DNA from: Anaspis maculata
Lineage: Eukaryota > Arthropoda > Insecta > Coleoptera > Scraptiidae
Length of the DNA: 64,000 nucleotides
Direction of reading: 5' to 3'
Assembly: GCA_949128115.1 (NCBI GenBank)
Contig: OX421966.1
Span: 62,741,416-62,805,415 of the forward strand
In this document: positions 1 through 63,401 of the stretch, piece after piece
Position numbering within the stretch: the first letter of the stretch is position 1
Layout of the letters: each line of letters begins with the position of its first letter
Translations under genes and position numbers: made by a program
Notes under the pieces: model-generated
The model's database searches: none
Told to the model about the DNA's origin: nothing
Seen by the model: the letters and a program-made list of their open reading frames with translations, nothing else

Positions 1-2740
1 ATTCAACTCCGTCCTTAAAATTAACATCTTACTTACTATTAATGACGAGTTTCGCTCGAATTTTCTGGCGCATGGGGCGGTGGCACAGATTCTCCTACGA
101 CCCTGGAATATCTGACACGAAGGCACTTGAACTTATTATTAAAAGCCAAGGAAAAGAAATCAAAACATTCCATTCCGAAACCTACATATTGCTTAGAATT
201 ATGCTAACATTATGCGGATGTTTACCGAACACCTGTCGTTAAGAACACAATGGGTCCAGCCATAATATCGCGAATGTAATTATCTATATTGGACATACCG
301 GCATGTTATGTACCTACCTACCGCAATCCAGCAATCATATAATTGGCGACCAAATGTGGCCTTGTGTGCGTGCACAAAAATTGTGTTTTTCCGCATAAAC
401 ACACCTAAACAGACCGCCTCGGAGAACGCAGAGGAAACGATCAATTTAAATTGGGTATCACTTCGCCAGATATTATTTTGTACCTATACATTTATGAAAC
501 TTATCCATCAGGTACCTGTAGGACAAATTTTTTGCCGTGGTAAATACCTAATTGTTATAAATATTTATTATTGTAACGTAAATTAACAACCTTGAATTTA
601 TTATATGGAATCAATGATGTAGGTATTTTTTTAGAGAAGATTGCAGGCCGGAACCTTACGTAATAATCTGGGTTGGGTGGTACCGCGTGATGGTCCTTGA
701 AAATTTTTCAAAACTTCTCAGTTTTAATATTCCAAAGTGCGGTGTTCCTTCCTATACACCCACTCGTATCCAGATTTTGAGATACGGGAGCCTTGGTTTT
801 CGAGCGCAAGGTTGCAGCATCGGGCTTGTTTGTACAAAAAAGTGGGTTCGTAAGAAGAAATAAATTAGCTAGGTATCTATAGAACAGTGCGACATACACC
901 TTAGGCAGTTAGCACTAACGTTACAACTGCAAGGTACCTAAACTCTTGGTTTCTTTGGCATAATACGGTGCTTGTGTATGTGAGAAAATTGGGAGATATC
1001 AGACAATAAAGGCGACCTCATGCACGTATAATTTAATTATTACTAACTAGCGTGTAATTCAAGGCTCCACAGACAAAAACCACAACCTCAACAGATTGCA
1101 AGTACGATACGTGATGAAATTGGGAAATTTTAGAAATTTCCGCGTATAGCTTCAGAGGCATATTGAAACGTTTTCGTCTAAATAGGAATGGGCAGTGGAC
1201 ACCCTGAATTGTCATTGTTTTTTTTTCAAAATTTCAAACGATACTCCAGTTTGTTTATTAATAGAGTGATGGAGAGTAGTGAGAGTATAAAAATACCCAA
1301 TCTAAATTTAACTATAGACCACAAGTAATAACGATTATACCTAGGTACTGTGAATTAAAATAAAATAAGACTTGCAACTCTCGCGCTTGGAGGATGAGGA
1401 CGATAACGAGATAGGCAATTGGCAGTTGTGGATCTGAAGTCCATAGTTGTCAAGCTTTAGGTTATTATCTTCAATTCTTGCCTGTTTGGTTTCAATTTGT
1501 GGTTACCTACTTGTTCTAACTACTACTTAAACCTCGTAAACCCACCAACTATTGATCCAGCCTTTGGTCAGCTGAAGGCATGTAGGATTTGTTAAGTCGT
1601 TGCTTACTTAGATGCAACAATATAGGTCGAAATATAGGTCGGTACACATGTTACAACTTCAGACATAAAGTACGCCGATGCCAATCCATACCAATAGATC
1701 ATTCATTGATTTAAAAGTGCTGCCGCATTGCCCACTAAATCGCCACCTAATCAGTCGATATTTTATAGACCATAATATCCTCCTTCTCCTCCTGCGTAGA
1801 CTTAACCATACCGTACCAATTTGTTTCGTTATCCAATCGTGTAATCGTTCACGTGTCCGAACTGCTAATTGTTATCCTCATCGCGCCACTGCTTGGCACA
1901 TAGAAAGTTGGCCGTGAAAGAATTTCAAGTTTTGATTCCGTTTTCACTTTCGACCGCATCAGCATCTGCCAGGAAAAAAAAATAGTGAAGCAGATCAAGT
2001 TTTTTGAAGACAATTTGTGTCTTTTATTGATCTCATACACAGTAACGCAAGCTATAGGCGTAGTAGGGGTATAAGTGCACCCCTAGCGTTTTGCTATGAA
2101 ACATGGAGGTCTCGTCTAATCGAGCATTGAAGTCTATTCCAGTTTTATTTACCATTACTGTATCCAGACCCATCCAGGCAAGTACCTACCTACTTTGAAC
2201 CAAGCTTGAGCGAAATTACATGGGGCCCAGCCCCAGCAAACTATTCTGAACGTATCGAAAGCCTGACATCAGGTACAGCACTAGATTTCAAAAGCTAAGG
2301 TCCTTTTTCGGCACACAGGTAGCGGTAGTTGAAGGCTTTTACTCTCACTTGAGCTATGCACCTGAACTCTGACTACTTACGTAATTATTCGAAATCAAAT
2401 GCAAAAGATATCAGGTAATGGTGGGGGTGGTATAGGTATAGGTATAGGTAAGTATCCAATAAAACATCTAACCAAACAATTTCGTGCATATTAAGCACCA
2501 ATTGATACCAATTCGGAAGACAATTTCCAACCGAGCCGACTTCCTGCGTAACACATTCGAAATTAAGCGATTTGTTTCACGCACGACTAGCTCGGGCACA
2601 AACAATGTCTTAATGAAAACGTGTAATTTGCCGTCACCTCTAATAGTCCTCGGGAAAATCTCGAAGGAGTTTTGTTGGCCAAAAACAGCCAGACGGTATC
2701 CACCTACCTGTGCATAAACATAAAATCCTTATAGTAACGG
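1..2740. other. AT-rich unique DNA, no gene seen
   Basis: Open frames here are short (under 80 codons), show no recognisable domain and sit on both strands without pattern, as expected by chance. The stretch is sprinkled with TAGGTA and TACCTA hexamers, a texture common in several insect genomes. No inverted repeat, transposon end or RNA gene was found by eye. Confidence 0.6.
2429..2450. repeat. GGTATA microsatellite
   Basis: Short run of about 3.5 GGTATA units. It is the densest patch of the TAGGTA-type motif that is scattered over the window. Confidence 0.7.
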
Positions 2741-3430
2741 GTGATGATAATTATCAAAATATATCATATTGCTAAGAGCGACGATTCCCGTCCATTCTGG
2801 TGAACACGCGATATTTCTGGGCTCTTCCACAGCCGCAGTGTACAAATGCGCGGAGCTCTGGACATTTTTAGAGTGTGCGAGGTGACATTGAAATGCATGG
2901 AGACTCAAACGCCTGATCAAGACACATCTGTCCATTTGGCGGCGGCGCCGGCTCTAGAGTACGGCAGAATTATGCGCGAGGTGTGTGGGATTGTTCGGGA
3001 GTCGCCTAGAAAATCAAGGATGATTTTTTCAACAGAAACTCGAAAAGCTAAATTTTGGGTACGGTCCTGTATTTATTTCATACGTGAATAAGGCGCTACA
3101 AAGGCTCTTTGTTCTAGAATATACCTGCAAACTTTCAATAGATTCTATTGATCTATTCCTGAGATATGGCCAATCAAGCTTTCCGGTTGAAGACACATGA
3201 ATCACCCTGTATATCGGAAACGGGGGACGTCAGGAAAATTTTGAAGGCAGATTCTCGATTTGCCTCGAGAAACTACATCTACCCTTGAACTATGTCGGTT
3301 ACTTCGTGGGACACCCTGTAAATAAAAATATGAAAGGGCTGGAAAACTCTCTAATCAAGGTAACCTCCTTGACTTTTTGTGATCATTTTTGATAAGCAAT
3401 GAATGTCTTTTTTTTTTCGAAAAAAAGTAG
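2741..3430. other. Unique DNA with solitary CACCCTGTA ends
   Basis: A GC-richer patch (about 2820-3000) contains an 82-codon plus-strand open frame (2846-3091) that matches nothing I recognise. At 3203-3211 and 3312-3320 the motif CACCCTGTA occurs twice in the same orientation. This is the usual outer end of TA-targeting MITEs in this window (compare 24343-24351 and 56953-56961), but no facing TACAGGGTG partner is visible, so these look like solitary or truncated ends. Confidence 0.4.
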
Positions 3431-3503
3431 CGCCCAACGTGGGGCTCGAACCCACGACCCTGAGATTAAGAGTCTCATGCTCTACCGACTGAGCTAGCCG
3501 GGC
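3431..3503 (-). tRNA. tRNA-Lys (CTT)
   Basis: The minus strand reads a full 73-nt cloverleaf. The acceptor GCCCGGC pairs imperfectly with GTTGGGC and is followed by discriminator G. The A box is TAGCTCAGTCGG, the anticodon loop ACTCTTAAT carries CTT (Lys), and the T arm has GGGTTCGAGCCC. No intron is present. Directly downstream on the minus strand lies CTACTTTTTTT, a Pol III terminator, so the gene looks functional. A second tRNA gene on the same strand starts about 390 bp away, which suggests a small dispersed tRNA cluster. Confidence 0.96.
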
Positions 3504-3889
3504 TTGCCAGTGTTTTGAAAATAGACATCTCAGACGCTACCTAAATTATCGAGACAATAAATTGACCGTTTTTCTTCGCTTTTACACATACAACATAATG
3601 CTCTTTCTAATTTTTTTTCTATTTAATTAGAAAGTTTTTGAAAGAAAAGTTGGATCTACACCAGCACTAATCGATACCCATTTACACATCCAAATTTCGT
3701 TAATCGATCAGCTATAGTTAGTTGAATTTTGATGTTTGGTTTTTATTATCAATGCTATTCTGGCTCCAAAGGTCAGAAATTAGAGTGATTATTTTCAATA
3801 AAAATAATGAGATACAATTTATGATATCAAAGGGAGTGAGTACTTATCTAAAAAAAAATTGGAATCAAATTTTTATTGAAAAAAAATGC
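3504..3889. other. Spacer between two tRNA genes
   Basis: AT-rich spacer with the T-run terminator of the tRNA-Asn gene at its right edge (A-run at 3880-3886 on the plus strand). Nothing else was recognised. Confidence 0.6.
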
Positions 3890-3906
3890 CGCCCCCGGGT
3901 GGGCTC

Positions 3907-3943
<37 letters not shown>

Positions 3944-3962
3944 GCCATTGCGCCACGGAGGC
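3890..3962 (-). tRNA. tRNA-Asn (GTT)
   Basis: The minus strand gives a 73-nt cloverleaf. Acceptor GCCTCCG faces CGGGGGC and is followed by discriminator G. The D arm is GCGCAATGGCTAGCGC, the anticodon stem is TTCGG/CCGAA with loop CTGTTAA (anticodon GTT, Asn), and the T arm is GGTGGTTCGAGCCCACC. No intron is present. A T8 run follows within a few bases on the minus strand and would serve as the Pol III terminator. Compared with the common insect form, the D loop appears to be one base shorter, but all stems are intact. Confidence 0.96.
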
Positions 3963-5562: not shown

Positions 5563-7012
5563 TTTTTTTGTTTGAGGGCGGGAGCTGGGAGCGGCGACTA
5601 ATCAACAGTAGTCTATTCTTTCCCATTTTTAGTCGGCTATCCATATAGCGAAAGAATTAGATCGCTGTGTCTTCGGGTTTATGTTTTCCATTCATCTCTT
5701 ACTTTGAGGGCAGCGTGTGGGGGTGGCAGCATTCGGCAAAGTAACTGTTGCACAGTTTGAGTTAGGAGTTTCTAAATGTTTAAGGATATATGACAATCAG
5801 TGAAAATTGTGAAAGTACTGAAAGTTGCATTTTTTTTGTTTGGGGGCGGGAGCTGAAGGCGGCGACTAATCAAAAGTGGCCTATCTCTTCCCATTTTTAG
5901 TCAGCTATCTATATAGCGGAATAATTAGATCGCTATGTCTTCAGGGTTATGTTTTACATTTATCTCATACTTTGGGGGCGGCGTGTGGGAGCCGCAGAGT
6001 TTGGCAAAGAAATTCTTCCACAGTTTGAGTTGGGAGTTTCTGAATGTTTGAGGTGACATTAAAATGTAAATCAGTGGAAATTATTGAAAGTTGCACTTTT
6101 TTCTTTTGGGGGTGGAAGTTGGAGGCGACGCCATATCAAAAGTAGCCTATTCTTTTCCATTTTTAGTTGGCTATCCATATAGCGAAAGAATTAGATCGTT
6201 ATGTCTTCGGGTTTATGTTTTTCATTCATCTCTCACTTTGATGGCAGCATGTGGGGGCGGCAGCATTCGGCAAAGTAACTGTTGCACAGTTTGAGTTGCG
6301 AGTTTCTAAATGTAAGGGAAATATGACAATCAGTGAAAATTGTGAAAGTTGCATTTTTTTGTTTGGAGGCGGCAGCTGGAGGCGGCGGCTAATTAAAAGT
6401 GGCCTATCTTTTTCCAATTTCAGTCAGCTATCAATATAGTGAAAGAATTAGATCGCTATGTCTCCAAGTTCATGTTTTACATTCATCTCTCACTTTGGGG
6501 GCGGCGTGTGGGAGCGGCAGAATTTGGCAAAGAAATTTTTGCACAGTTTGAGACAAGAGTTTCTGAATGTTCGAGGTGACATTATCAGCTAAATCAGTGA
6601 AAATTGTTGAAAGTTGCACTTTTTTTCTTTTGGGGGCGGAAGCTGGAGGCGGCGCCATATCAAAAGTAGCCTATCCTTTTCTATTTTTAGTCAGCTATCC
6701 ATATAGCAAAAAACTTATATCGCTTTGTCTTGGGGTTCATGTTTTTCATTTATCTCTTACTTTGGGGGCGGCGTGTGGGAGCGGCAGCGGTCAGCTGAGC
6801 AAATGTTGCACAATTTGAGTTGGCAGTTCCTAAATGTTCAAGGGAACATCTCAATCAGTAACATTTGTGGAAGTTGCACTTTTTATCGTTTGGGGGCGGA
6901 ATCTGGGGGCGGCGACTAACCGAAAGTAGCCTATCCTTTCCCATTTTCAGTCAGCTATTTATATACCGAAAGAATCAGATCGCTATGTCTTCGGGTTTAT
7001 TTTTTTCATTTT
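5563..7012. repeat. Tandem array, about 263-bp units, alternating types
   Basis: The phrase GGCGACTAATCAAAAG or a variant recurs at about 5594, 5860, 6126, 6383, 6650 and 6911, a spacing of 257-267 bp, giving about 5.5 units. Each unit contains TTTGGGGGCGGGAGCTG, a GTCAGCTATCCATATAGCG block, TCGCTATGTCTTCGGGTT, and TTTGGGGGCGGCGTGTGGGA. Units alternate. Units 2 and 4 are followed by a GAGGTGACATT tail and then a CGCCATATCAAAAG head, whereas units 1, 3 and 5 are followed by ATATGACAATCAGTG-type tails and CTAATCAAAAG-type heads. This implies a dimeric repeat of about 525 bp. Several open frames run through the array, but they differ between units and look incidental. Confidence 0.85.
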
Positions 7013-9075: not shown

Positions 9076-10015
9076 TTTTCCACAGTAGAAATGTAACAAA
9101 ACAAGTGCATGCATATTCCCTCACGTGCGTGAGTCGGAATAGCGCATTTTCTTGGTAAGCATCAACTCGTCCCAAAACAGAAGATTAAAGCGATCTACTT
9201 CTCTTGCTGATGAATAAATGACTCACAATTAGCTGAAATTAGCTCCCTTTCTATGCTCCTACCACTAAACAAAAACCACTTCTTTTCACCGGAAATTTTC
9301 TTCTTCGATGCTATCTAGGATGACGCTGATTCAATTTAAACAAATTTAGGGGTCGAGAATATCAAATGGGACAGTCAGAAAGAATTTTAAGTTGATGTGG
9401 GTGGGGTTGAGGTAGCTGAAGACAGAAATTTGCCAATGTATGTTTCAGACGTCCCTCTCGATATAAAAATCTACTTGTGTGAGCTTTTTTCGTAAAAATT
9501 GAGTGAAATGCCCAAAACCCCCGTTGTTGCGTTTTCGTTATGAAGATGTACCTGTTTGAGCTTTCTCCAGAAAAATTGAGTGGAATGCCCAAAAACCCCC
9601 TTGTTGGGTTTTCGTTGGGCCACCCTGTATAATCAAAGTTTTTGGGATAGCATTTTGAGATCTGAGCAACACGGGCTTTACCGAAACAAATCACATCTGA
9701 TGCCGTCTGATGAGGTTTTTACGATACTTAATCTGCGGTGCCCAAGGTTGACCGAGGGAATTATTCACAGGGTTTTTTTGTGATATGATAAAGGCTTTCG
9801 ATTGCGTCCTAATTATTTTTACATTACCTGATTATTCCACGAAATTGTTGGTATTTTCGGAGTCTATACGTTCAGTTTAGAGAAAAAAGTTACTCTTGCA
9901 AATCTTTGAATAGAGGCTTCATTTCCGAGATACTTAATTGAGTTTGAAACGTTGGAAAACATCCCAAAATCGCCACTTCCAAATCCCTAAAAATTAGAAT
10001 CCAAGAAAAGTCATA
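9076..10015. other. Mosaic of short repeat pieces (families S and T)
   Basis: The part 9270-9690 (repeat S) resembles 57040-57700 and, inverted, 55080-55250. A shared feature is GATGCTATCTAGGATGACG against GATGCTGTGCAGGATGACG. From 9895 a second repeat (T) begins with GAATAGAGGCTTCATTTCCG at 9908, the same 20 bases as at 45440-45459. Repeat T is interrupted at 10016 by the large element that follows. No gene was seen. Confidence 0.6.
9474..9628. repeat. Tandem duplication, about 78 bp x 2
   Basis: The segment with GAGCTTTYT..AAAAATTGAGTG, AATGCCCAAAAMCCCC and TTGTTGSGTTTTCGTT occurs twice in a row and ends at CCACCCTGTA. A related single unit is at 23400-23480. Confidence 0.7.
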
Positions 10016-10689
10016 TAGCCCAGTCAAATTAGGTTTTGACCTAGAAATAATTCGCCCAAGGCTGAATTTTTGCACATTGATAGTTTGGACCTAGTATAAC
10101 AACATATGAAAATACCCAAACTTTCCCATGTCCGCGTCTTCGATTTTCAGGTCCTCAGGTTCTTGAATCTGCATCGCTGAGCTGCAACTCATGCCGAAGT
10201 ATTAATCTTGAACCAATTAAACTCAAACTGATCTTGAATTGAAGAGAGAAGATCAAAAATGATTTTCCGGTGCGAGTGTCTCACATCCGGTGCGCGGCAA
10301 GCCGGTAGACCCGCGAAATTCAATAGTAACGCTGTTATTCGCGACGTCTTCTCACGGAACTATCGCTTTGTATCGTTTATCAAAAAAATAACAACGGTGA
10401 ACCACAGCTCAATGCATTTAGTGATTCTTCAGTTTCCCAAATATGTATCTATGGTGTCTGTGGAAGCATCAGTTACAAATATACAGCCCCCAGACTAAAC
10501 GCTAGTCAGGGTGACATGAGCTCTGTTTTGCGATCTGTGAGCACGATTGTAATCCTTGGTGACTACTGGGTGTCCACATTAACATTACTGTTGTGATTAT
10601 TATAAGCTATCTTGGGGTTATATCTCGGGTTATATATTCAGTTGTATGTCTAAAAGGTATGTTGCTTTTTTCATTCAACAATATAATGA

Positions 10690-11190
10690 GTTATAGCTGG
10701 GTAATTTAGGTCAAAAGTCGACAAAACCAATAGAAAAGATTCGGCTAGAGCTGAATTTTTGCTAATTGACAGTTTGGACCTAGTACAACAACATATCAAA
10801 ATACCCAAACTTTCCCCTGTCCGCGTCTTTGGTTTTCAGGTCCTCAGGTTCTTGGAGTTGCACCGCTGAGCTGCAACTTATGCCGTAGTATTAATCTTGA
10901 ACCGATCAAGCTAGGCTGAACTCAAATGGAAGGAAAAAATCGAACAATAATTTCTGGTGCGAACGGTCCACATCCGTCCGCAGCAATCCAACATACCCGC
11001 TAAATTCAAAATTAACACTGTTATCCACGACGACTTTTTACAGAACTCTTGCTTTGTATCGTTCATCAAAAAGAGAAAGGTGAACCAAAGCTTAATGCAT
11101 TTAACGATTCTTCAGCTTTCCAAGTATGTATCTATGGTGTCTGTGGAAACACCGATTTCAAATACACAGCCCCCAGACTAAAATCGAGTC
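10690..11190 (+). repeat. Direct second copy of the left arm
   Basis: This repeats the order of 10060-10510: AGTTTGGACCTAGTACAACA, TCCGCGTCTTTGGTTTTCAG, GCTGAGCTGCAACTTATGCC, GCATTTAACGATTCTTCAGC and CAGCCCCCAGACTAAA. The offset is about 690 bp. The element therefore has two left arm segments and one right arm, meaning internal duplication or insertion of a related short element. Confidence 0.8.
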
Positions 11191-11398
11191 AGGGTAACGC
11201 GATCTCTGTCTGTATTGACTTTATTGTTTTCTATGAGCCTAATCTTTTTCATTTTGAGTTATTGGCGAATTGAATACATACTCGCACATCCAATGAGGCT
11301 ACATACTACATATTTATATTATTAGGAAGTTTACGCCATGAATGTTCATGTCATTCATGTACTCAATTGCATTATTGTGGTTATACAAAATGTACTTA

Positions 11399-11526
11399 CG
11401 CCGGGTTGCTCACTTCGAGTTTAACTTCAAACCCGGTTTGGTTACGATGGAAATAATTGTTGCAACAATTAAATCTATGGCAACCAAACCAAGTTTAAAG
11501 TTAAACTCGAAGTGAGCAACCCGGCG
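11399..11526. mobile_element. PIF/Harbinger-like MITE hairpin, TTA target site
   Basis: A 128-bp near-perfect hairpin with inverted repeats of about 45 bp starting CGCCGGGTTGCTCACTTCGA and three mismatches within them. It is bounded by TTA at 11396-11398 and TTA at 11527-11529, and a 3-bp TWA duplication is the hallmark of PIF/Harbinger. It sits inside the larger TA-flanked element, so it arrived later. Confidence 0.85.
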
Positions 11527-11826
11527 TTAGTTAAAGTAGACCATGGAAATGTAATGGAAAATTGGAATGCAATAACTCACTGAAAATGTTTAGCTCATAG
11601 CTCTTTAATCATGATATGAAGCAAGTAGGTAGCTGCTACGTTTCATAAATTTCGGATGACGTCTCTGAAAACGACTCTGGACTGATAGGTGGTAGGTGCC
11701 ACAATGCTTTTTTCGCACCATGACTGAAGGTTTTGATTGTTCTAGCTGGTGATTAGTTATACTCTTCTAGGTGGTCCTATACATTTTATTCAGTGTTACA
11801 TAGTGTCATCGTTGTCATCAACATGA

Positions 11827-12853
11827 TCAGGTTGTCAGCACTGACCCCAAAAAATGATAGCGATTGGAACAGTTCGTATCTTTGCAGTTCGAGCACATGT
11901 CTGAGCAGATTTGCCCAGCTTATTGTTTGCAAGTGCATCGAGTTCCACAACCTCCCCTGCAGTTACACGGTATTAGATGCATTAAGGAATCAGGTACTGC
12001 AGGAAGATGTGTGGGTGCTGGCGTCAGTATGTCCTTCACGCGTTGCCATCCCATTTGTTGGAGAGAGATCGTTTCTCATCTATTCTTGGACATGGGAAAC
12101 GTGGACGGTGCAGACTGCAGATCAGAAATGTCGCAGTACGATTAAAATACTGACTTGAAATAATCACTGCACAGTAAAGTCATAACTAGAGCTAACCTGG
12201 AGATAAGTCCCCAGAGTGCTGATGAAGGGCAGCTTCAGTTGGCGGAAGCGTCAACAGGTAAAAAAATGATGTCACAGTCTGCTTGGCAATCGCTTGGTTG
12301 TACAAATGAAGGCGTAAATCGTCAATATTTTCAACTCTTTGGCTTGAATAGAGTATGTATACAAACTTTTCTCCAGCACTCGAAATTTACTTGTGGGTGG
12401 AAGATGCAGAATTGAAGACTCATGACTCCAAACCGAAGTGGTTCGTCTTTTTGGGGCAACTTGTACTTAGGCGTTCTTTTTGCTTTTTCCAAACATCGCG
12501 TAAGTTCCTACCCCCCACCGGTCACAGTATAAGCAAACAACAAGGCATCTTCAAGATCACATAGCTCTTCTTCCTCAATCCCCTGAATATCGTACAACTT
12601 GCCAGAATTCTTGCTAGTACTGGGGTGCAACATGTATCTACGCACTGCTCGCTTTCCATACCAGGGCAATCATCATCTCTAATACGCCAGTGTCGTTTTC
12701 GATGACGACAACCTACTGCCCACATATTAGTTCCTCCACTGCAATAGTGAAAATGAGAAAGTCTGCATCGTCAAAGGCTTGATGTACGGTCACGCTGGGC
12801 TCTTCGAAATTGTGTTGCCAGCATTCATATGAGACGAACCTTATTGTGGACAT
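11827..12853 (-). pseudogene. Degraded PIN/XPG-like nuclease-type gene with Cys-rich tail
   Basis: Minus-strand pieces in several frames read in the order of a multi-copy arthropod protein family that I know only as uncharacterised. From 12853: a stretch with DDADFLIFTIAVEEL, then after a stop VVVIENDTGVLEMMIAL, resembling the DAD..I..TAIE...VVVGEDTDLLVLL core of PIN/XPG-like nucleases. After a frameshift comes KLYDIQ then LLFAYTVTGG, where relatives usually have a GCDTTS motif. Near 12230 is LPPTEAALHQH. Near 11990-11855 is a tail with spacing CxCx3Cx3CxC...Cx3Cx2Cx4C. At least three in-frame stops and several frameshifts make it non-functional. The N-terminus is missing where the right arm starts. 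Family assignment is from motif memory only, and the function is unknown. Confidence 0.65.
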
Positions 12854-13545
12854 TGCTAAAAAATTCTGCTTGTGATACTGTCACTGCGGTATAATCCTAA
12901 TCCCATATAAGCTTCATAACATGTAGCCCCAAGACACCTCATAATCACAGTAACATTGATGTGGACACCCAGTAGTCACCCACGATCACAATTATGGCGC
13001 TCGCATAATTAGGTATAGTGCAACTCAGAGCTCGCCTCACCCTAACTTGCGTCTAGTCTGGGGACTGTGTATTTGCAATCGGTGCTTCCACAGGCACCAT
13101 AGGTATACGCTTGGGCAGCTGAAAAATCTCTGAATGCATTGACCTATGGTTTGCCACTGTTTATTTTTGATTAATGATACAGAGCGAAAATTCTATGAAG
13201 AGTCGTCGCGAATAACAGAGTTGATTTTGAATTTAGCGGGTTTGCCGGTTCGCCGTGTACCGGATATGGGCCACTCGCTCCAGAAAATCATTGTTTGGTC
13301 TATTCTATTCAATTCAAGCTCAATCTGAGCTTGATCGGTTCAAGATTAATATTACGGAATGAGTTGCAGCTCAGCGATGCAACTTTAAGAACTTGAGGAC
13401 CTAAAAATCAAAGACGCGGACACGGGAAAGTTAGGGTATTTTGATATGTTGTTCTACTAGGTTCAAGCTGTCAATGTGCAAAAATTCAGCCTTGGGCGAA
13501 TTATTTCTAGGTTTTGTCGATTTTAGACCTAAAATGCCTGGGCTA

Positions 13546-16013
13546 ATAATTTTTAAACTGAAATAAGTTTTCTAGGTGTTTTGAAGTTTTAAGAAAATTC
13601 ATATCCCACCCTGCTGTAAGGGTGCTAACATAAGCATAATAGTAGAAGTGAATTTTGAGAGGGAATTCACAATCAGATGCAGAGAATCCGACCGTAGAGT
13701 CCGTAGACCTTCCCCTACATTTTCAAGATTTATTTCGAATATGATGTTCAGAAACAGGGATAGAGAATGAGGGACGAGGTTGAACTTATTTTTGAAAAAT
13801 AGACACTTTTACGAAACAGGATGATATGAAAGTCCACTATTTCCATTCATTTGGTTTATGATATGGAAAAATGTTTTACGCTTAAATATGGTCAACTTCA
13901 ACCCTCTGTGGGGTGAAAACTGGTCATACGAATGAGTTTTTTCTTGACGATCTTATTCAGCGTAACCGATAGGGCACAATATCAGAAATTCAGCCGGAAT
14001 GACCGATGGCTCTTTTTTAAAGCCCACCCCCTATTCGGGGGTTGGAAAAAAAGTCTGTGCTAAAATTCATAATTCGACAAAATAGAACCATCTGCATGAC
14101 TTTCAAACGTAATTTCGAATTTTACACCCACAAGTAGGGGTTGGAGGTGAGGGAGGGGGTTGATTTTTTCACAAAAGAATAAGGAAATTGTCATTAGCCA
14201 TGAACATATAGAAAAGTTAGGGAATTTGACTGTGTAAGGGATCGCACTTTTGCGCCTAGTTTTAAAAAGATTCCCCTTTAAATTCGCGCGAGAAATGATT
14301 TGTTGGTTGCCTAAGTAGACGACCAGAAATCGTCAAGAAACGTCACCATTGAGATTAGGCGAGGACGGTCAGGGTAGAGAAAAGGGGGAACGAGGGAATT
14401 TCCGACAACACGCAGCGGTGTTCCAAGTTCTGGGCCGGAAAGTCGTGAATACAGGTGGGTTCTGTTTTGATTTCCTTGCTGATTTTATTCCTCAAGGTGT
14501 TGCTTGCCTTGGCACGTGAATTTGTGGCCCGGTCAATGTAGCATGTTCCATTTTTGCGAATTTCAAGTAGGTTTTCTGGGCCTCGGCGGGCGCCATCGCA
14601 AATGGCGACGTAAACAAGGAAAATGTAGTCTGGGATTTTCGCCCTAGTTGAAATCAAGCCGCACAGAGAACGGGAAAAACATTACTCGTACGATTTGTTC
14701 AGTTCGTTTCTGGGAGAAGGGACTTACCTGTCGGGTAGGTAGCTACAACGTAGGTATGTGTCCGGATTCAGAACACATTCAATTTTCTTGATTAGTCAAA
14801 GATGTTTACTCGTTGGGTTACAATACAAAATAGGTGCATCATTCATTCATTCATTCATTCACTCATTCACCTACTCAGAAGTGTACGTTGTCATGACAGT
14901 GTTTGTTGGTGCTACAAACTCTGCAAGCGGCAAAGCGAAATCTGAAAGAGCCTGATGGTTGAACCTGAACATGTGTGTGTGAGCTAGTTTTTAACATTCA
15001 TTTTTATCATGTCCGATGTGTCCTTGAAAGTCGTGTAGGGGCCAACACTCCCTGGCTGCTCAGGAATTGTTCAAATGTTAGTGACTTTTGTGTGTTTCAT
15101 GTTTTGGGGTTTTTCTGATTCCTGTTTGGAAATTGAGGAGGGTCGGGAATCGGGGGAGCAGTTTCAGGTTAGTAATAGATCGGTTTCAACTCTAGGGGAA
15201 CACCTAGCTATTGGGTTTAGGTCTTTTCAGCGGTCCCTTGAGCCTTTACACGCAAACACCTTCTCTGTGGGAACCCAGAGCCTTGATTTAGTTAAGTCGC
15301 ATGTGTCTACCAATTGCTTTCTGCCTTGAGAGAGATGCGGAGTGGCGAAAGTGTGCTTTTAAGCGTAAAGCGTGAACATTAAATCCTGAGCGTAAAGTTT
15401 CACCAAAGCGTAAGCCAGCGAGTTTCCTTTTGTTGTTACGTAACTAAATGGCAAACTAAGCGAACATTTAGAGACGTTTGAGTACCAATTCACACTGGCT
15501 TGATGAATGCATTACTAGAGTGATTTCTCTGTCATTCCACCATGGCTCATTTACACTCAATTTTCATAATATCATTTGGGAAGGGATTTTCAGCACTCAA
15601 TCAGGCAATACGCAAGGGTTTCTTTGACGTGTTCTTCCCATGTGTGCCTGTCAGCGAATACGTCACTATTCTTTTGTGTTTACTGACAGTTTGATGCGTT
15701 TTATGATTTCTTGTTGTGCTTTGTTAATCAAATTATGTGTTTATTTTATTGTTGTTGATTCCTGCATTGTCTAAATGACTTGTAATGTCTTTCTTGTTTC
15801 ATTTGTGTTTGTGTTTTGTTTGTTTTGATCTATGTCATGTCATTTTGTCACTCTGTCAGTTTATTGTTGTGAGGTGTTTTGAGAAAAGAAACAGATTCAT
15901 TAAAAAAAACATTGCAAACGATTCAAATAAAAACTTCATTTTGCTTGCCTTCATTCGCGTTTCATTAAGGACTTTCAGCACCATCCCCAAATTCACATTC
16001 TCATCTAGAGTAA
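13546..16013. other. Mostly unique DNA, no gene recognised
   Basis: The first 80 bases are the right part of repeat T (GAAATAAGTTTTCTAGG, as at about 45560). The remainder shows no inverted repeat or transposon protein. A 100-codon minus-strand open frame (14355-14657) sits in GC-richer DNA but has no recognisable domain. An ATTC microsatellite is noted separately. Confidence 0.5.
14839..14868. repeat. ATTC microsatellite
   Basis: Five perfect ATTC units followed by ACTC and ATTC. Confidence 0.9.
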
Positions 16014-57739: not shown

Positions 57740-58774
57740 TTTCTATTTGTGATGGCAGTACTCGCACTATAAATCTGGCACTTATGCATCAGAGAACCGG
57801 GAAACGTTGCCAGAGAGTTGCCATCTCAAATTCGCTTCATGTCTTGCGGTATTTTGAGAAAAGCTCTTCCACACTCAATTGTTTTGGCTAGGTTACGTCC
57901 AATTTTTGCGCTCTTTCGAACATATTCAAGCCATATAATAACAATTGCTCTATCGCAGATTGCTGAGCCAATCAAGAATCGATCGGGTGCAAATTTCTCG
58001 CGTCTTCTATTCCAATGCTGGTATATTTATTCCTGAAATACGCTGCGATTCCTTGATCCTCCGCCCGGACCAGCTCATCCCTCGCGTAATCCTCTTTCGT
58101 CTTTCCACAAAAAAACTTTCTTCGGCCATCTTAGTCCGCGGTTCGTGGCAAAAAGCACTAGCGCGAGCATTTAAAACGTCTAATCTTTTTGCGTGTAAAA
58201 AATTGAAATAATTTAAACCGATTTACGAGCCACGGGCGCCACTTCTTGGCCTGCCCCCGCGGGCAAAGTGCCGGGCACCGGGAGAGGAAGCTAATTTATG
58301 CTTTCATGAGCATCTTTCTGTTCCCATTCAGCAGCAGCATGGCAGAGAAGCGCAGCCTTGTGAGGATTCTTTCATGCCGTTCGCGTCGCATTTCTCCGAG
58401 TCGCGCTAATTTTTCCCGACGCGACTCCGGGATAGTAATTATTTTTTTCCAGGCAGAGAGAGCATCCAGCCGGCATTTTTTCCCTTGTTAAGTTTGAATC
58501 TAGTTTGTTCTTTATTTTAGTAATTGCTGTTCGTTGCTTTCATGGCTGACTATTTGTAGGATGAGTGGGAAGCAGATGATTATATTTCTCGCACCATGTT
58601 GGAATAAATTTTAGGTCTCCTATCAAGACCTTCGGCTACCCCGCGGCTTCATTTGAGACAGGGCGTCATGCACTTCTTGCAAAATTTCATTGGATGGCTA
58701 CTATTGCTGGATCAAACTCTAACGTTTTGATCCATGCGGACCGGAGGAGTCCGCTCCTTGCAACAACCCTATTA
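57740..58774. other. Unique GC-richer island
   Basis: Single-copy stretch with several CpG-rich patches (58230-58300 and 58370-58470). Open frames of 72-88 codons have no recognisable domain. It could be host conserved non-coding DNA. No splice-framed exon could be supported. Confidence 0.4.
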
Positions 58775-60960
58775 GGCCAGTCAAATGAGGAAAGCTGGAG
58801 GGAAAAAACTGTTGGAGTTTTGGAAATTTGACAGTAATGTCCGGTAAGGTGTACTGTTGAACATACTAAAAGTCCTAAACTCTACCTATTGAGCTCGAGC
58901 CGCCATCTTGGAAAAATGGTCCTTCGATCCAGTTTTCTGCTTATATTCTGCTAATCATCAAAGATATTTGATTAAGTTTGATAAAAAATCAAGGCTATAA
59001 AATTGTCTACAAAAATTGTTTCATACCGTTTTTTTTTTGTCGTATTTGTTGATAATAATTGAATTAAATTAACAAAAAAAATATCAAAAAATAAGCGATT
59101 TTTTGCCTATGGCTAGAGATATTGTCTTCAAAATTTGTGAAGATGTTGACAGTCTACATCAAAGCTAAACGTGACAGTTGATATAGAAAAAAAAAAGCGA
59201 AAATATTTTTTTACTTTTTTTCCAAATTAAGTTTTTTTTTTTGAGTTTGACATTTCCAACAGGGCGGAGTAAAGGTTTCAACCGATCATCAATCAGTTTT
59301 GATATTTCTATACTGTAAGACAAGATCTCATCAGTATTGTGCCTTCACGAGCTTCTGGAATGCTCGATATGAATTCAACTAAAAGAATAATAGCTAAGTC
59401 CAAAAAGTAATGTCGATTGGTTCTGAAGGAGACATTTCGTAACAAAAGACATCAGCAAAGGATATACAGGAGGTCCAAAGGTTATTCAACTGTATATGAG
59501 CCCCATATTGGTGTGCCCTATCCAAAATAGTACAAAAGAATCAATCAAAATGTTAAAATCCACCCTGTATAATAAAAAGTAACGATACAAAAGAGAAGTA
59601 GTAAAGCATACTTGGTGCCAAAAATACAGCCTTTACATTGCTGAAAAAATAACAAAATTAATTTATTTATTTGAAAGTTATTAGTCCTCAAACTTGACTT
59701 TACAAATTCCAGCCAGTCAAATAGGGAAAAGTAGAGAGAAGCAACTGTCAGAGTTTCAGAAATTTGACAGGGATGTTCGCTAAGGTATACTCATAAACAT
59801 AATAAAAGTCCCCGCCTCTACCTGTTGCGTTTGAGCCGCCATTTGGGTCCTTCGATCAAGTTTATTACCATTTTTCCAAGATGGCGGCTCGAGCACAACA
59901 GGTAGAGGCGGGGACTTTTAGTATGTTTATTAGTATACCTTAGCGAACATCCCTGTCAAATTTATGAAACTCCTACAGTTACTTTTCTCTACTTTCCCCC
60001 ATTTGACTGGATAAAATTTGTAAAGTCAAGTTTGAGGACTGATAACTTTCAAATTAATCAATTTATCTTGTTCTTTTTTTCAGAAATGTAAAGGCCGTCT
60101 TTTTAGCATCAGGTATGCTCCACTACTCCCATTTTGAATTGTAACTTTTTGTTATACAGGATATGTTTTAATATTTTGATTGATTCTTTTGTACTATTTT
60201 GGATAGGGCACACCAATCTGGGGCTTATATACAGTTGAATAGCCTTTGGACCTCCTGTATATTCTTTGCTGATGTCTTTTGTTTCGAAATGTCCCCTTCA
60301 GAATCAATCGACATCACTATTTGGACTTAGCTATTATTCTTTCAGTTTAATTCATATCGAGCATTCCAGAGGCTCGTGAAGGCACAATGCTGATGAAATC
60401 TTGTCTTACAATATGTAAATATCAAAACTGATTGATGTTTAATTGAAACCTTTACTCCGCCCCTGTTGGAAATGTCAAACTCGAAAACCAAATTTTCGCT
60501 TAATTTAAAAAAAAATAAAAAAATATTTGCGCAATTTTTATTTTCCATCTCAACTGTCACGTTCAGCTTTGATATGACTGCCAACATCTTCACAAATTTT
60601 GAAGACAATATCTCTAGCCATAGGCAAAAAATCGCCAATTTTTTGATAATTTTTTTGTTAATTTAATTTAATTAATATCAACAGATACGAGAAAAAATCG
60701 GTATGAAACAATTTTTGTAGACAATTTTACAGCCTTGATTTTTTTTAAACTTAATTGAATATCTCTGATGATTAGCGGAATATAAGCAGTAAACTGGATC
60801 GAAGGACCATTTTTCCAAGATGGCGGCTCGAGCTCAATAGGTAGAGTTGGGGACTTTCAGTATGTTTAACAGTACACCTTACCGGACATTACTGTCAAAT
60901 TTCCTAAACTCCAACAGTTTTTTCCCTCAAACGGAAAAATTTGTTCTAATTTGACTGGTC
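58775..60960. mobile_element. TA-flanked 2.2-kb palindrome with a palindromic core
   Basis: Ends TA|GGCCAGTCAAATGAGG and AATTTGACTGGTC|TA (TA at 58773-58774 and 60961-60962). Arms of about 1.08 kb match outward to inward: CGAGCCGCCATCTTGGAAAA, AACATCTTCACAAATTTTGA, CGAGCATTCCAGAGGCTCG and CAGGAGGTCCAAAGG each occur once per arm in opposite orientation. The centre (59712-60011) is itself a 300-bp palindrome that starts and ends with the element's own end sequence CCAGTCAAAT and repeats the GCGGCTCGAG and TCTACCTRTTG block found at the outer ends. It has no coding capacity. Confidence 0.9.
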
Positions 60961-60962
60961 TA

Positions 60963-62117: not shown

Positions 62118-62392
62118 CTGTCGGCAAGTTTTCCTAGTTTTTTTGTCGATGAGTAGGATGTCGGCAGGTTATCCTGTCGATAAGTTCGGTGTTGGCAACT
62201 TATTCTGTCGGCGAATTGTCTTGTCGGTGAGTTGCCCTGTTGGCAAGTTGTCCTGACGGCGAGTTGCCTTGTCGGTAAGTTTTCTTGCCGGTGAGTTGTC
62301 TTGTCGGTAAGCTGTCTTGTCGGTGGGTTATCTTGTCGATGAATTGGTTGTCGGCAAGTTATCCTGTCGATGAGTTGAGTGTCGATGAGTTA
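62118..62392. repeat. Minisatellite, ~15-bp units
   Basis: About 17 imperfect units of CTTGTCGGTAAGTTG with alternating variants (GTCGGCAAGTTATCC, GTCGGTGAGTTGTCC, GTCGATGAGTT). Units are mostly 15 bp, with a few shorter. Confidence 0.88.
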
Positions 62393-62533: not shown

Positions 62534-62845
62534 ATGATTCGGGTACGTTCGAAGAAGTTGGTCACCTTTCTCAATAGGAAGCCCAAGGTTAGGAAGCCTC
62601 TCTTCTTCCTACGCTTCTTCTCTGCCAAAATTCACATTACGCAATTCTTGATAACCTTGTCGACTTCGTCGTCTAGTTTGAGGAACCAATATTCTCGGAG
62701 AATCAGGTCTTTGGTATCATTCACTGTGAAGTGACCACTTTCGTGGACATTTTTTATCATCTCCTTCTGCAGCTTCAACAGATTCCAGCAGTTTGCTATT
62801 TTTGGAATCCCTGTTCAGCAGACTGGAATCCATAGCGTAGTGTTC
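62534..62845 (-). pseudogene. Ty3/gypsy-type integrase zinc-binding fragment
   Basis: The minus-strand frame from about 62772 reads KEMIKNVHESGHFTVNDT, then LILREYWFLKLDDEV and IKNC, then VM and a TGA where the second cysteine of the HHCC domain belongs (62632-62634), then ILAEKKRRKKRGFL. H-x3-H is at 62745-62731 and the first C at 62643-62641. This is the integrase N-terminal zinc-binding domain of LTR retrotransposon polyproteins, which helps integrase bind DNA. The catalytic core, RT and LTRs are not visible. The Cys-to-stop change and frame loss on both sides make it a relic. Confidence 0.78.
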
Positions 62846-63401
62846 ATAAGACTGAGTCTTGATTACATCGCAGATAATTTCCAATTGTTCAATTGTTTCA
62901 ATTTCAGTATCTCTAAAGAATCGCTTCTGATGTCCATTGTTATCAGATTACTACTCAAAGTATCGCAATGCTTCATTCTCTAACTCCCGGTCGATGTTCA
63001 ATATGGAATAGTCGAATTCTTCTAGCAAAAGCGATTTTGAACAAACATTCATTTCCATTTATTTCGACCATCAGATTCTGATGCGAACATCGTGCACAAA
63101 GCGGGCAGATGATGGTAACTAGAGACATATTCTCACTATCCAAGATATTTTCGACCAGATTATACTAGTTTCGAATCGATCCAACAATTACAGACAAATA
63201 CCTATTCAACTTCGAGAAAGTAATCCTAAAAATCAGACGGGCTGAGCAACAACCATCGAAGTCCAACAGACACGTGTTTGGGACTTACTTATTGGGTCCT
63301 TATCAGTGCTGGAGCATTCGAAGCTGAGCTTGGCGATCTGAATATCGAGATTACCTATATCACACTCGAAGGGTGCTCGTAAGTGAGACACCCGTGCGGC
63401 G
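62846..63401. other. Unclassified DNA upstream of the integrase relic
   Basis: The minus strand could hold further retrotransposon pol debris (for example a frame with YEHYAMDSSLLNRDSK near 62850) but no motif settles it. Confidence 0.3.

Follow-up and report, generated by a model that had tools for sequence, protein, structure and literature searches.

Does the decayed nuclease-like gene that lies between two long inverted arms in the beetle Anaspis maculata belong to the transposable element around it, or did that element pick it up as cargo? The question arises in a stretch of 64,000 nucleotides (the window; C6:62741416-62805415), where the element occupies positions 10016-13545 (copy L001), and both answers had been offered in a first-pass annotation of the letters. 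After searching the 757.8-Mb genome (50 contigs), we favour the former and disfavour cargo. The element belongs to a non-autonomous DNA transposon that is present in many copies, and the relic most likely represents the last part of an enzyme that the transposon family itself encodes. The autonomous relatives very probably encode a DDE-type transposase, a FEN1/XPG-like 5′-nuclease and a Cys-rich tail, as in the AcademX kind, and would later have moved the element in trans.

The termini of the element are TAGCCCAG...CTGGGCTA, and its end sequences (TAGCCCAGTCAAATTAGG and, inverted, TAGCCCAGGCATTTTAGG) have four matches in the window at three mismatches or fewer, against 0.08 expected. The target duplication of this copy is 3 bp long, ATA on either side. 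The first-pass annotation had instead set the boundaries at 10018 and 13543, with a flanking TA as the target site; however, TA is constant inside the terminus (TAG...CTA) while the adjoining 3 bp are variable and duplicated, so the TA belongs to the terminus as its outer part. When the genome was searched with the DNA of the element, at least 192 matches were obtained, a lower bound given that 40 of 1654 first-look candidates were scored. Twenty-eight loci were compared, 26 of them distinct (L020 repeats L007, and L028 repeats L003). Both ends could be located in 21 of these, but not in L006, L017, L018, L019 or L027, and the flanking 3 bp were identical in 20 of the 21, window copy included. 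Outside the window the duplicated triplets are CAA, TAT, ATA, GAT, AAA, TAA, TAG, TTT, ATG, TTG, AAT and AAC. In L011, only 20 of 30 bases agree at the right end. Pairwise identity among the 19 alignable copies ranges from 90.4 to 99.5%.

Within the element, the gene survives as a series of minus-strand fragments (Table 1). A profile of 90 family proteins, run against 2940 translated window fragments, recovered four collinear pieces (E 1e-11, 1.1e-8, 0.0027 and 0.02), a significant match to the family, and a profile of 90 longer proteins recovered six, spanning profile positions 1131-1434 of 1466. With a limit of E 0.1, the latter profile detected no part of the transposase half within the element, and its single stray match elsewhere in the window (62720-62947) was weak (E 0.065); on the reversed window, the best values for the two profiles were E 3.5 and 0.34. 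What is retained is about 1.07 kb of the 3′ end; the missing 5′ part comprises the entire transposase domain and the beginning of the nuclease. The DAD motif, the LPPTEAALHQH motif and the Cys-rich tail that had been noticed in this strand are indeed seen in the translated pieces, whereas the supposed DTD reads DTG and the GCDTTS-like position is decayed. Similarly, the gene had been said to stop where the right arm begins; the coding match does end nearby (12880-12896, against an arm start at 12921), but it is the 5′ part of the gene that is missing there. Three stop codons of the relic are common to 18, 19 and 18 of the 19 alignable copies (window included), while a fourth (12510-12508) occurs in the window copy alone (1/19); this comparison excludes five copies whose relics are interrupted and makes no use of L018, L019, L020 and L028. 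Since the three stops are so widely shared, the gene was dead before the family spread. Searched directly, the relic pieces gave no Pfam family, no protein homologue and, in PDB, only a chance-level row (E 1.1), because they are too decayed.

The identity of the gene is clearer in its relatives. The same genome holds relatives with open frames of 1471, 1491 and 1496 amino acids, each of which joins in a single frame a transposase fold resembling those of the P element and Hermes, a FEN1/EXO1/XPG-like nuclease and a tail rich in Cys, and many of the homologues among the matches listed are about 1450-1500 amino acids long. These relatives adjoin, or are enclosed by, ends of the TAGnnCAGTCA type, related to those of the window element, and 3-bp duplications were found in 10 of the 10 elements placed, which bears out the mobile origin that had been suspected for the family. 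Terminal positions 1-11 of the window copy agree with those of L030 at 11 of 11 (one L030 end seen) and with end A of a palindromic lineage, itself with a 3-bp duplication, at 9 of 11. According to the available part of PMC4455052, the Repbase rule asks for shared terminal positions 1-11, with one mismatch allowed, together with the length of the target duplication. Because the nuclease of the relatives is in frame with a transposase fold, with related ends and 3-bp duplications, the element itself is the most likely owner of this enzyme. Neither outcome that the first-pass annotation had set as a refutation was observed, the relic having a significant match to the family and homologues being found between such ends. 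The family had been thought of as one of arthropods, yet the 120 matches listed also include corals and anemones, fish, a hagfish, a mollusc and a brachiopod.

Both folds come from predicted models. In structure comparison, the transposase model (homologue P0220) is nearest to the P element and Hermes, and the nuclease model (homologue P0001) matches solved FEN1-like nucleases, in agreement with the PIN/XPG fold that had been anticipated. Seven acidic positions of P0001 (D26, D65, D135, D137, D159, D161 and D220) are kept in 53, 59, 60, 60, 60, 60 and 59 of 60 sequences, respectively, in what we take to be the order expected from their FEN1 counterparts. Fold and order are thus shared with the FEN1, EXO1, XPG and GEN1 nucleases, but here the domain is part of a transposase and has Asp-Ala-Asp where those nucleases have a Glu pair.

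Several observations weigh against this interpretation. Foldseek on its own gave the transposase model no significant PDB match, the best being an unrelated structure at E 0.37; Pfam DUF6589 is above cut-off in only one of six homologues scanned and is precomputed for five of the 120 homologues listed; and in three of the genome's relatives no Pfam family reaches its cut-off. One copy, L007, has mismatching 3-bp flanks, and its end bases are altered. Additionally, the window element has no DNA match (E 1e-3) to the loci L029, L030, L036, L040 and L046, so that none of these five can be named as the actual helper.

As a candidate helper, L018 was considered and rejected: its open 1053-amino-acid frame (L018:6742-9900; C2:35541441 onward), which runs to the end of the stretch read, is recognised by the full-length profile (E 2.5e-21), yet it seems to represent a family further removed. 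The CXC domain (PF18264, preSET_CXC) stays below the Pfam cut-off in five proteins, the best being P0008 (E 0.03; 15.3 against 23.3 bits). No relative was found in scans of viral_contigs and genome_contigs, and no PDB sequence matched a profile of A2.

The best filing for the family would be the nuclease-encoding Academ group (AcademX), as judged by its published description. In the accessible part of PMC10045372, AcademX has target-site duplications of 3 or 4 bp, and the Academ lineages are told apart by helicase and nuclease; the accessible parts of PMC10294476, PMC10799480, PMC9587614 and PMC9783078 contain no Academ reference sequence. The window family and its relatives have duplications of 3 bp, the nuclease accompanies the transposase in relatives and homologues (the window copy holding a nuclease relic only), and a DDE-type core is predicted from the fold of P0220. 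The AcademX nuclease is of the XPG type. Unlike that lineage, the window copy has its left arm doubled and is not autonomous, and many of its young relatives are palindromic.

It is rather improbable that we are dealing with a separate group of DDE transposases with an XPG-type nuclease, sharing with Academ only that nuclease and the duplication length. Such a group would be consistent with a likeness drawn from description, with the scarcity of DUF6589 and with a fold nearest P element and Hermes, but the combination of a nuclease with 3-4 bp duplications is the published description of AcademX, and we know of no other superfamily that has both. The P element and hAT (Hermes) make 8-bp duplications, in contrast to the 3 bp and the fused nuclease seen here, and their transposases lack, to our knowledge, a FEN1-like domain. 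Capture of a host or foreign nuclease gene by an unrelated transposon is very unlikely; the position of the fragment between the arms, the undetected transposase half and the lack of DNA matches to the five relatives would suit it, but in the relatives nuclease and transposase are one reading frame, of a length matched by many listed homologues, next to or enclosed by ends of this same type with 3-bp duplications. A Tc1/mariner-like element, which the TA found at either end of this copy might suggest, can be dismissed, as TA is constant within the terminus and the duplicated bases are site-variable triplets (CAA, TAT, GAT, AAA, TTG, AAC and others), not TA.

The family most likely descends from an element that retained the terminal arms and the 3′ end of the gene, was deprived of the transposase domain and of the beginning of the nuclease, and gathered stop codons. 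Later mobilisation in trans could have come from a relative recognising TAGnCCAGTCA-type ends, whose transposase would cut and then insert with a 3-bp stagger, the window copy being a passenger. Judging from its fold, the fused nuclease may trim flaps, or cleave intermediates that are branched or hairpin-shaped, during excision, integration or repair. On this reading, a large family of animal proteins catalogued as "uncharacterised" or "Tesmin/TSO1-like CXC domain-containing" would be the back half of a transposase, and gene catalogues probably list many transposon copies under such names.

Among the relatives, one young lineage has many copies that are giant palindromes. Of 53 gene clusters, 15 contain a pair of copies on opposite strands no more than 12 kb apart, divergent in all 15, and the inverted arms of 12 elements measured are 98.87-99.98% identical over the part read. 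Their loops of 334, 731-732 and 835 bp indicate at least three derivatives. The largest palindrome (C6:45804011-45815197; L036, L038 and L059) is 11,187 bp long, has a 3-bp duplication (GTA) and carries two divergent transposase-nuclease frames of 1471 amino acids, identical over the 1087 read; its arms are 99.98% identical over the 4237 bp read, about 1.1 kb of each arm being unread. At its centre, a 51-bp spacer is bordered by arms that match again at 92.8% of 209 pairs, and no significant remnants of termini were found there. The 731-732-bp loop is found in either orientation with respect to the distinct tips (L037/L052 and L047/L054), which suggests recombination between arms. The form is not universal, since no inverted partner is listed near L030, L040 and L041, or was found for L039 in the DNA read. 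Snap-back copying was dropped as the origin of the palindromes, asymmetric loss of a full palindrome's centre being simpler given the 11.2-kb copy. Foldback and Galileo-type elements also have long inverted termini, but the arms of these palindromic relatives contain the transposase gene itself. A title-level literature search, with subscription papers mostly outside its coverage, found no palindromic or inverted-duplicate transposon of such form among the papers listed. Tentatively, the normal transposing form of the lineage might be a near-perfect giant palindrome with two complete divergent transposase-nuclease genes, whose arms, each about 5.5 kb long, differ only in the 21- and 31-nt tips and around the 51-bp centre; the nuclease might handle the resulting hairpins or cruciforms, and long-armed relics such as that of the window might be worn descendants of the same lifestyle. 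With two open frames in young palindromic elements, both a flap or junction nuclease role in transposition and the origin of foldback elements become testable.

Table 1. Positions in the window of the element, its parts and a second element with ends of the same type.
Feature	Position	Strand	Evidence
Left target-site duplication, ATA	10013..10015		flank comparison across copies
Left terminus, TAGCCCAGTCAAATTAGG	10016..10033	+	29-30 of the first 30 bases matching in copies with placed left end
Left outer inverted arm	10016..10623	+	10039-10623 inverse to right arm, 79.6% identity
Tandem second copy of left arm	10700..11209	+	10731-11209 vs 10042-10526, 81.2% identity
Nested 138-bp palindromic insert, like a miniature inverted-repeat transposable element	11394..11531		69-nt arms, 87%
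Relic, end of Cys-rich tail	11830..11919	-	profile searches, E 0.02; 0.0033
Relic, linker and start of Cys-rich tail	11923..12075	-	profile searches, E 1e-11; 2.6e-12
Relic, LPPTEAALHQH region	12195..12386	-	profile searches, E 1.1e-8; 8.6e-11
Relic, region preceding GCDTTS motif	12511..12669	-	E 0.021, weak alone, collinear
Relic, DAD motif and preceding stretch, start of surviving fragment	12716..12896	-	E 0.0027; 0.0046 and 0.0022
Right inverted arm with terminus CTGGGCTA	12921..13545	-	self-comparison of window and end placement
Right target-site duplication, ATA	13546..13548		flank comparison across copies
Second element, ends TAGGCCAGTCAAATGAGG / TAGACCAGTCAAATTAGA, almost wholly palindromic	58773..60962		88.8% self-complementary over 2149 columns

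The long inverted arms of the window element had been put at roughly 640 bp; they are present, pairing 10039-10623 with 12921-13512, but measure about 610-625 bp out to the tips. The second copy of the left arm also matches the right arm inversely (10705-11208, 80.4%), and the doubled stretch is covered by alignments of other copies. This doubling, the nested insert and the second element had all escaped the first-pass annotation. The nested insert is absent from other copies as judged by alignments covering both sides of 11398-11527; L002-L005, for example, align to query positions 1-1381 and 1510-3526 without it.

The second element in the window has flanks of TAT and TAC, with one mismatch, and inner copies of its end region. 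Elsewhere, a tandem array (5563-7010) holds about 5.5 copies of a unit of 266-268 bp, short-period tandem repeats with units like TGTCGGTGAGTT occupy 62144-62392, and genes for tRNA-Lys(CTT) (3430-3503) and tRNA-Asn(GTT) (3890-3962) lie on the minus strand.
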